Shown here: positions 354-37,140 of the stretch, piece by piece
Layout of the letters: each line of letters starts with the position of its first letter
Numbering within the stretch: the first letter of the stretch is position 1
NCBI GenBank assembly: GCA_019752015.1
Contig: JAIEMQ010000035.1
Coordinates: 1 to 64,000, forward strand
Source of the DNA: Cyanobacteriota bacterium
GTDB lineage: Bacteria > Acidobacteriota > Vicinamibacteria > Vicinamibacterales > UBA2999
Direction of reading: 5' to 3'
Length of the DNA stretch: 64,000 nt
Made by a program: the position numbers and the translations under genes
Notes under the pieces: model-generated
The model's database searches: none
The model's input: only the letters and a program-made list of their open reading frames with translations
Told to the model about the DNA's origin: nothing

Positions 354-845
354 ATGAGCGACGACAGGAAATACCGTCAGCGCGGCTACCAGGACGACGA
401 CCGCGATCGTCAGAAGTCCGGCCCTCGCCCCGACGGCGGCGACCGAAAACCGGAGCGAGAGCCGGGCGCCCCGGCCGGCGCCCGCCGCATTTCATCCGAA
501 GGCGCGCGCAACCCGCGCATGATGGGCTCGCGCCAGGTCGCGCGCTGCTCCCGCTGCGGCACGATCGTCGACGCGCAGATCATGTCGCTCAGCAAGTGCC
601 CGAAGTGCCAGGTCGAATTGCGATCGTGCGTGCAGTGCGTGAATTTCGATCCGGGCGCGAGTCTCGAATGCGCGGTGAAGATTCCAACTCGTGTGTCGCC
701 GAAGGACGTGGCCAACGAGTGCCAGCACTTCAGCGGCCGGACCGCGTGGGAACGCGAAACCACCACGGCCGTCGGAGACAAGGCCGGCAATCCGAAAGAG
801 CCGAGCGGCGCGAAGAAAGCCTTCGACGACCTTTTCAAATTCTGA
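354..845 (+). CDS. Zinc-ribbon protein of unknown function
   Basis: This 163-residue soluble protein has a long charged, disordered N-terminus (about residues 1-55, rich in Arg, Asp, Gly and Pro). A compact cysteine-rich domain follows at about 60-130, with CSRCG, CPKC, CVQCVNF, an isolated Cys and a final ECQHF. The spacing suggests two zinc-binding knuckles. A tail ending in a short AFDDLFKF-like helix closes the protein. The architecture fits a conserved hypothetical zinc-ribbon protein, and no catalytic motif is visible. It starts with ATG and precedes the PDO-like gene by 43 bp on the same strand, so co-transcription is possible. The function is unknown. Confidence 0.7.
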   Translation: MSDDRKYRQRGYQDDDRDRQKSGPRPDGGDRKPEREPGAPAGARRISSEGARNPRMMGSRQVARCSRCGTIVDAQIMSLSKCPKCQVELRSCVQCVNFDPGASLECAVKIPTRVSPKDVANECQHFSGRTAWERETTTAVGDKAGNPKEPSGAKKAFDDLFKF

Positions 846-888: not shown

Positions 889-1539
889 ATGGGTCTGTTG
901 TCGCCGCAAGACGAAGCCACGCTCAAGAATCACCTCTCCGGCATCACCATTCCCGTTCAGCTCGTCCTCTTCACGCAGGCCTTCGGCGGATCCGAGAGCG
1001 GCGACGTGGCGAAACAGATCCTCAACGAGGTGGCGTCGCTCAACGACAAGATCACCGTCGTCGAAAAGAACTTCGTCCTCGATACCGAGGACAAGGCGAA
1101 ATACAAGATCGACAAGGCGCCGGCGATCGTCATCCTCAGCGACGGCACCGACACGCGCATGCGGATGTACGGCGCGCCGACCGGTTATGAATTCGTCGGC
1201 CTCGTCGAAGCCATCATCGTCGCCGGCACCGCGGTCATCGACCTCGATCCCGAGACGATGAAGTGGCTCCAGGCGGTCGACAAGCCGACGCACATCCAGG
1301 TGTTCTCGACACCGACTTGACCGCACTGTCCGAGGGCGGTCGTCCTCGCACACAAGATGGCAGCGGCCAACGAGAACATCACCGCGGACGCGATCGAAGC
1401 CACCGAGTTCATGGAGTTGAGCCGCAAGTACCGCGTCACCGGTGTGCCGAAGACGATCGTCAACGAGACGATTGAGATCATGGGCGGCCTGCCGGAGAAG
1501 ATGTTCGTGCGCCAGGCGCTGGAGATGCCGGAAGAATAA
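889..1539 (+). CDS. PDO/glutaredoxin-like disulfide oxidoreductase, predicted selenoprotein (UGA at 1318-1320 read as Sec)
   Basis: The reading frame continues through a single in-frame TGA at codon 144 and then to TAA at 1537-1539, giving 216 residues. Two thioredoxin folds are recognisable. The N-terminal one (about 1-115) has no CxxC. The C-terminal one begins with VFSTPT-Sec-PHCPRAVV, where the family has CPHC, and continues through the conserved RVTGVPKT cis-proline segment. The TGA therefore sits exactly at the nucleophilic Cys of a CxxC motif, making it UxxC. The halves on both sides of the TGA share the same frame, so no frameshift is needed. A hairpin 10 nt after the TGA looks like a bacterial SECIS element. 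The likely role is cytoplasmic thiol-disulfide exchange. The upstream gap carries GGGAACC-type heptamers. A Cys-to-stop mutation is the alternative, but it is unlikely because selD shows the same feature. Confidence 0.85.
1331..1348 (+). promoter_or_regulatory. Candidate bacterial SECIS hairpin of the PDO-like gene
   Basis: CGAGG (1331-1335) pairs with CCTCG (1344-1348) around the 8-nt loop GCGGTCGT. The hairpin begins after 10 intervening bases from the TGA, the distance known for E. coli fdhF, and the loop starts with G and contains GGTC. A competing 6-bp stem, GACCGC (1319-1324) with GCGGTC (1336-1341), includes part of the TGA itself. Confidence 0.6.
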
Positions 1540-7273: not shown

Positions 7274-7363
7274 GGAGAGGTGGCTGAGCGGTCGATAGCG
7301 GCGGTCTTGAAAACCGTTGAACCTTCACGGGTTCCAGGGGTTCGAATCCCTTCCTCTCCGCCA
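7274..7363 (+). tRNA. tRNA-Ser (anticodon TGA)
   Basis: GGAGAGG (7274-7280) pairs with CCTCTCC (7353-7359), followed by discriminator G7360 and an encoded CCA (7361-7363). The D arm, an anticodon loop CTTGAAA with anticodon TGA, a long variable arm and a TTCGAAT T-loop are present. The long extra arm and G73 are serine identity features. It decodes UCA and is not the Sec tRNA, whose anticodon would be TCA. It ends 4 bp from the convergent serS gene. Confidence 0.95.
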
Positions 7364-36093: not shown

Positions 36094-37140
36094 ATGACAC
36101 AGCAACAAAGGCGGCGGCTGACGGAAATGGTCAGCTGCGCCGGTTGAGCGAGCAAACTCGCAGCCGGCGAGCTCGCTCAGGTCCTGAGCGGCATACCAAC
36201 TCAAACTGACCCACGCATCCTCGTCGACTACAGGACTGCGGACGATGCAGGTGTGTACGCGTGGGAGAGTGGCCCGGCGCTGGTGCAGACGGTGGACTTC
36301 TTTACGCCGATTGTCGACGACCCGTATCTCTACGGGCAGATCGCGGCGGCGAATTCGTTGAGCGACGTCTATGCCATGGGCGGGCGGCCGCTGACGGCGC
36401 TCGCGATCGCCGCGTTTCCGCAGGACGGTCTTCATACCGACGACATCGCGCAGATTTTTCGCGGCGGCTTCGACAAGCTCCGCGAAGCCGGCGTTGCGCT
36501 GCTCGGCGGCCACACCGTCCAGGACAAGGAGATCAAATTCGGGTACGCGGTAACCGGCGCCATCGATCCGAAACGCATCCTCACCAACACGAACGCGAAG
36601 CCCGGCGATCGATTGATCCTGACAAAGGCGCTCGGCACCGGCGTGGTCGGCACCGCGATCAAGTTCGGACGCGCCTCCGACGATCTGATCGATCGCGCGA
36701 CGACGCAGATGCGGATGTTGAACAAGAGCGCCGCGGATGTGATCGTGGAGACGGACGGCGTTCATGCGTGCACCGACATCACCGGCTTCGGTCTCGCCGG
36801 CCATGCATCCGAGATGGCAATCGGCAGCAACGTGACGATCGAGATCGACGTGACGTCGATGCCGATCATTCCCGGCGTGCGCGAAATCGTGTCGACGAAC
36901 AAGTCGGGCGGGATGACTACGAACCGCGATCATTTCGGATCCGGCATCGAGTTCCGCGCTGACGTCCCGGACGACCTTCGCGACCTGGTTTTCGACCCCC
37001 AGACGTCCGGCGGACTACTTATCTCTGTCGCTCCGGGCATCGCCACGCTGGTTGCCGCGCACCTGCAAAAGGCGCGGATTCAGGCCAGTTTTGTGGGGAC
37101 GGTCCGCGAGAAAGCATCGAAGACGCTGATTATCGGGTGA
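36094..37140 (+). CDS. selD: Selenide, water dikinase SelD, predicted selenoprotein (UGA at 36145-36147 read as Sec)
   Basis: Makes selenophosphate from selenide and ATP, the selenium donor for selenocysteine. The ATG at 36094 opens a frame MTQQQRRRLTEMVSCAG, then in-frame TGA at codon 18, then ASKLAAGELAQVLSG and the known C-terminal SelD body (VDFFTPIVDDPYLYGQIAAANSLSDVYAMGG; GGHTVQDKEIKFGYAVTG). Sec18 with Lys21 aligns with catalytic Cys17-Lys20 of E. coli SelD, so the TGA is at the active site. Using it as Sec gives 348 residues, the family length. A strong hairpin starts 10 nt after the TGA. A stop here would remove the catalytic residue, and the alternative start MYAWESG would lack the whole active-site loop. 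Confidence 0.92.
36145..36179 (+). promoter_or_regulatory. Candidate bacterial SECIS hairpin in selD
   Basis: The inner stem CTCGC (36157-36161) with GCGAG (36167-36171) closes a 5-nt loop AGCCG, starting about 10 nt after the TGA, with G at loop position 2. The outer TGAGCGAGC (36145-36153) and GCTCGCTCA (36171-36179) form a further perfect 9-bp stem beginning at the TGA itself. It matches the apical-loop and distance rules for bacterial SECIS. Confidence 0.7.

Follow-up and report, generated by a model that had tools for sequence, protein, structure and literature searches.

In AhpF, the first thioredoxin domain of the N-terminal region lacks a CxxC motif and serves as a redox-inactive scaffold; AhpF also has a reductase fused to it and works with cysteine. 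A selenoprotein family termed 'homolog of AhpF, amino-terminal domain' was listed with two members in a 2006 table, and the organisms named for it were Carboxydothermus hydrogenoformans and Symbiobacterium thermophilum (PMC1794560). The same family was later given as '(Grx-like domain protein), TIGR02187, UxxC', with accession ABB15282.1 (PMC9312934, 2022; PMC13188914, 2026). Carboxydothermus CHY_0740, reported as a TGA-containing 'glutaredoxin-like' protein (PMC1914089), is probably the same protein as the listed Carboxydothermus member. Asgard archaea (Borrarchaeales) were reported to have a selenocysteine (Sec) form of this AhpF-related family, for which the authors infer a possible recent origin from homologues with Cys (PMC11227280). 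The family is not named in the available text of the Sargasso Sea study (PMC1088965) or of the deep-Sep study (PMC12013277). The protein disulfide oxidoreductase (PDO) of S. solfataricus is supplied with reductant by NADPH-thioredoxin reductase and reactivates a peroxiredoxin (PMC7278568).

Gene, fold and family membership

The gene studied here occupies positions 889–1539 (forward strand) of the window, the whole 64,000-nucleotide stretch that was analysed. It begins with ATG at 889 and ends with TAA at 1537–1539. The sole in-frame TGA (1318–1320) lies in the same frame as both flanking halves, as originally predicted, and stands where a CPHC motif would have its first Cys. When TGA was translated as Sec, a product of 216 residues was obtained with the motif STPT-U-PHCP (U144-P-H-C147). 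This redox protein, from a bacterium that its relatives place in the Acidobacteriota, very probably uses selenocysteine at its active site. The adjoining upstream gene (354–845) is terminated by TGA (843–845); a global reassignment of UGA was ruled out by this stop, by the conservation described below and by the many separate genomes involved.

NCBIfam model TIGR02187 (PDO_seleno_TRX) matched residues 7–212 of 216 over positions 3–208 of its 209-position profile (232.3 bits, cut-off 185). It was the only NCBIfam model above its cut-off, with the glutaredoxin models far below theirs; the Pfam Glutaredoxin match lay just at its cut-off (22.9 bits). An AlphaFold model with Cys in place of Sec (pLDDT 94.4, pTM 0.91) had two tandem thioredoxin folds. 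The closest solved chain was 1A8L, the PDO of Pyrococcus furiosus (E 1e-34 over residues 1–211, model TM 0.94), and the Aquifex PDO (2AYT) was matched at E 6e-29 over residues 21–210 with a model TM of 0.93. Comparison with TIGR02187 and 1A8L thus supports the PDO-type tandem fold that had been proposed. The N-terminal domain of AhpF has the same tandem thioredoxin fold (5H29 and 1ZYN; model TM 0.89 and 0.82, respectively); unlike AhpF, the window protein is free-standing and carries Sec.

A classical PDO has CxxC in both domains. This is so in 1A8L (CQYC, CPYC), whereas the window protein has SESG first, aligned to CQYC, and UPHC second, and falls outside the classical definition. In many other PDOs a CxxC stands at the N-terminal site, here residues 32–40 (982–1008, forward strand; with GGSESG). 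The window protein has lost the motif there, as had been predicted. The Carboxydothermus and Symbiobacterium members, as listed, share TIGR02187 and UxxC with the window protein and come from a different phylum. The Borrarchaeales Sec form belongs to the same named selenoprotein family but is archaeal (PMC11227280).

The original prediction had presented a tandem-fold, PDO-type Sec protein as an undescribed form. This fails at family level, because the family has been listed as a selenoprotein since 2006 (PMC1794560, and later PMC9312934 and PMC13188914) and TIGR02187 carries the name PDO_seleno_TRX; the find is accordingly real yet mostly ordinary. For the acidobacterial branch, the loss of the N-terminal CxxC and the pairing with a zinc-ribbon-like gene, no description was found in searches of an open-licence library.

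Proposed reaction and electron donor

In the best reading, which we consider highly likely, the UGA is decoded as Sec via a hairpin and the product reduces disulfides at a single Sec-Cys site, probably driven by thioredoxin reductase. With the hairpin at 1331–1348 as guide, SelB and Sec-tRNA(Sec) would decode UGA 1318–1320. The N-terminal thioredoxin domain, its CxxC gone, would be a redox-inactive scaffold as in the AhpF N-terminal domain, and the whole redox chemistry would fall to the C-terminal domain with its Sec144-Cys147 pair. A substrate disulfide would be attacked by the selenolate and then resolved by Cys147, and the selenenylsulfide would be re-reduced, probably by the thioredoxin reductase of the genome (410 bits, cut-off 343). 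We infer SelB binding to the hairpin and catalysis and, since the genome encodes both this reductase and a GCS2-family ligase, the electron donor and the client also.

Glutathione stays a possible donor because the GCS2-family ligase gene is present. A true selenoprotein driven by glutathione in the manner of a glutaredoxin, and not by thioredoxin reductase, would also agree with the borderline Pfam Glutaredoxin match. We nevertheless regard it as unlikely, given that the PDO model alone exceeds its NCBIfam cut-off, that thioredoxin reductase serves the Sulfolobus PDO, and that a glutaredoxin-like protein of P. horikoshii was reported to be without glutaredoxin activity (PMC7278568).

Selenocysteine machinery and distribution of homologues

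The genome of the window was searched for the machinery of Sec insertion. tRNA-Sec was found on contig C36 (61 bits, over its cut-off; tRNA-SeC(tca) by ARAGORN), as were SelA (1e-134), SelB (342 bits including neighbouring pieces, cut-off 242) and SelD (above its cut-off). A genome without selA, selB and selC had been named beforehand as evidence against a selenoprotein; all three are present, together with selD. The selD gene (selenide, water dikinase; 36094–37140, forward strand) has an in-frame UGA of its own at 36145–36147 and reads as a Sec form with the motif CAGUASK, a second selenoprotein gene within the window. A tRNA-Ser(tga) at 7274–7363 scored 46.5 with the tRNA-Sec model (cut-off 47) and was taken for an ordinary tRNA-Ser.

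Homologues were collected from 43 genomes of the same family, its own included, and a PDO homologue was present in 24 of them (25 loci). Residue 144, at which the original prediction had asked for Cys or Sec in homologues, was encoded by TGA in 22 of the 25 loci (21 genomes), each with exactly one TGA, at this active-site codon. It was Cys in the other three (TGT in L031, TGC in L032 and L033), so that the in-frame UGA is aligned with Cys of homologues. SelA was found in 20/21 family genomes with the TGA form, the exception being G041 with no SelA match; among the three genomes with the Cys form, it was absent from G022 and G032 and present in G035.

A wider sample comprised 396 genomes of the phylum, with E < 1e-20 taken as a strong match. 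PDO matches were found in 84 genomes and were strong in 71, with TGA in 29 and without it in 42. A broad Acidobacteriota branch (29/396 genomes with a strong TGA-form match) thereby joins a family listed with two members in PMC1794560. SelA (E < 1e-20) was present in 28 of the 29 genomes with TGA versus 18 of the 42 without (Fisher p 2e-6 over the 71 genomes, related genomes being non-independent). The remaining TGA-PDO genome, G364, gave an unconvincing SelA match (E 4e-4); SelA may be missing from G364 and G041 through assembly gaps. Cys occupied the site in those non-TGA homologues of the phylum that were read (L129, L135–L138, L140, L143, L145, L147 and L148). Of the named relatives with at least 55% identity (L049–L068 and L070), nearly all carry the title Acidobacteria or that of a class or genus within this phylum, one of them Vicinamibacteria. 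L049, at 86% identity, was titled Acidimicrobiia and was taken for a misnamed MAG.

Differences per site at codon positions 1+2 relative to position 3 were calculated for 21 loci. The ratio was 0.46 for the codons ahead of the TGA and 0.38 for those from codon 155 on, and the downstream half is therefore a conserved protein.

Hairpin downstream of the TGA

A SECIS-like hairpin at 1331–1348 (forward strand) begins 10 nt past the TGA (CGAGGGC / GGTC / GTCCTCG). Its stem has 7 pairs including one G-U, and −10.1 kcal/mol was calculated for the stem-loop alone. Published bSECIS rules comprise a loop of 3–9 nt, a stem of 4–16 bp, G in the first two loop positions, a spacing of 16–37 nt and an MFE of −7.5 or lower (PMC13188914), and the hairpin conforms to them (spacing 17 nt, stem 7 bp, loop GGTC, and −10.1 for the isolated stem-loop). 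The hairpin thus exists as predicted and has the bacterial SECIS pattern, but the pattern discriminates poorly. The rules were passed by 33/34 Sec sequences (L133 fails), by 26/71 Cys sequences and also by 66/150 random TGAs of the window; because of these last, agreement with the rules is weak evidence alone. An Rfam search of window positions 1200–1500 found nothing at E values as high as 10; to our knowledge, bacterial SECIS elements fall outside the coverage of Rfam's SECIS models.

The main support for the putative hairpin, and for reading the TGA as Sec, is comparative. All 7 pairs form in 21 of the 22 family TGA loci; in L030 the register is shifted and the stem has 6 bp. One pair, between the third bases of the Pro148 and Leu153 codons, shows a compensatory change (CCG-CTC in 13/21, CCC-CTG in 8/21, none mispaired), an exchange that may have happened just once on the tree. 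Pairing was retained in all 105 cells (15 distinct sequences); shuffles gave 93.2%, and slid registers no more than 65%. Changes on both sides were confined to 1 of the 7 pairs, with 4 invariant, and the counts of both-side-changing pairs and of pair types were not above those of shuffles (492/500 reach them).

When all 9-codon stretches of the gene were compared, mean third-base entropy was lowest at codons 144–152, a stretch that takes in the TGA itself and conserved residues. At four-fold sites, third-base entropy was lower in codons 145–154 (p 0.019 uncorrected, 7 versus 78 codons). A synonymous-shuffle fold test gave a mean z of −1.64 for the 34 Sec sequences versus 0.05 for the 71 Cys sequences; p ≤0.05 was reached singly by 16/34 and 3/71, respectively.

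These comparisons bear on three other explanations of the TGA. Readthrough with a near-cognate Trp or Cys tRNA in place of Sec-tRNA is very improbable in view of SelA in 28/29 strong TGA-PDO genomes of the phylum sample, the GGTC-loop hairpin conserved at synonymous sites, and the Cys seen at the site in non-TGA homologues. Scarcely more credible, and if anything less so, is a genuine stop, which would leave a degraded gene or a one-domain protein of 143 residues with a decayed tail. The adjacent upstream gene does end in TGA, but constraint is no weaker after the TGA at 1318–1320 than ahead of it (0.38 versus 0.46, 21 loci), and a solitary TGA at the active-site codon is common to 22/25 homologous loci. 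A sequencing or assembly error of TGC or TGT to TGA would need a one-base change and three relatives do have TGT or TGC, but its probability is negligible when the same TGA recurs in 21 family genomes (own included) and in other families of the phylum. The selenoprotein reading, as predicted, is supported by the TGA shared among the family loci and by the Sec machinery of the genome; comparison further supports UGA recoding through the exchange of Sec with Cys and through the constraint on the hairpin.

Evolution of the two active sites

A quick tree was made of 105 proteins, in which 41/102 inner branches were open. At least seven Sec/Cys changes were required on it, at least four of them forced by well-supported branches, along with at least seven gains or losses of the N-terminal CxxC. 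Many of the Cys rows came from a contig scan with the pattern TPTCPHCP, from which the best 80 of 117 were kept; this pattern favours Cys, and Sec is therefore probably undercounted there.

The N-terminal CxxC was kept in 12 of the 34 Sec proteins and lost in 22. All but one of the latter (21/22) fall within a 23-row clade that includes the window protein, the other being L146. Two Cys members, L068 and L070, also lie inside this clade, and from their placement they appear to be reversions from Sec. The clade shows the Cys site of one domain lost while the other domain carries Sec, with apparent returns to Cys. Elsewhere, L145 (Cys) and L149 (Sec) are close sister PDOs from genomes that both have SelA (G355 and G362), apparently through a recent Sec/Cys exchange.

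Upstream zinc-ribbon-like gene

The gene at 354–845 (forward strand, stop TGA) encodes a zinc-ribbon-like protein of 163 aa with eight Cys, a possible partner of the PDO. Its product gave weak zinc-ribbon matches, none above a Pfam or NCBIfam cut-off. The eight Cys were invariant in 45/45 aligned proteins, its own included, and the protein represents an uncharacterised family deserving a name.

The zinc-ribbon-like gene was found upstream of the PDO gene and on the same strand in 24/25 family loci (not L033), at a spacing to the PDO start of 6–251 nt by alignment ends. One family genome, G038, carries two pairs of Sec-PDO and zinc-ribbon-like genes (L029 and L034) on different contigs. Outside the family, a homologue stood beside the PDO in 8/81 loci, many of the 81 belonging to distant phyla or being truncated where a contig ends. 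It was upstream on the same strand in seven of these, with Sec in L079, L130, L132, L133 and L141 and Cys in L071 and L129, and on the opposite strand in L069.

Within the family, 38/43 genomes had the zinc-ribbon-like gene, made up of 24/24 with a PDO and 14/19 without; the gene therefore has no need of a PDO. Downstream ORFs were viewed in 14 stretches, from 13 of the 14 PDO-less genomes with the gene (G017 omitted) and from G035. No substitute redox protein was apparent 3' of the zinc-ribbon-like gene in these stretches, judged by eye from the first 90 residues of mixed ORFs. The zinc-ribbon-like genes L152, L158 and L164 have no PDO downstream; the ORF that comes next is similar in all three and looks, by eye, like a methyltransferase.

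Comparison of gene order and spacing supports the gene pairing, and the zinc-ribbon-like protein is the likeliest dedicated partner or client of the Sec-PDO. For this selenoprotein, for which the available text of the literature names no physiological client, it is a partner that can be put to the test. More tentatively, the Sec-PDO and the eight-Cys protein could form a dedicated two-protein redox system belonging to the Acidobacteriota, in which the Sec-Cys site would reduce or reload the Cys clusters and the zinc-ribbon-like protein would either act as a redox switch or carry metal. The zinc-ribbon-like protein might then be the core, retained more widely, and the PDO a dispensable accessory, its active residue switching between Sec and Cys with the Sec machinery of the cell. 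Shortly before the zinc-ribbon-like gene, a tandem repeat with a 19-base unit (3.8 copies) occupies positions 238–309.
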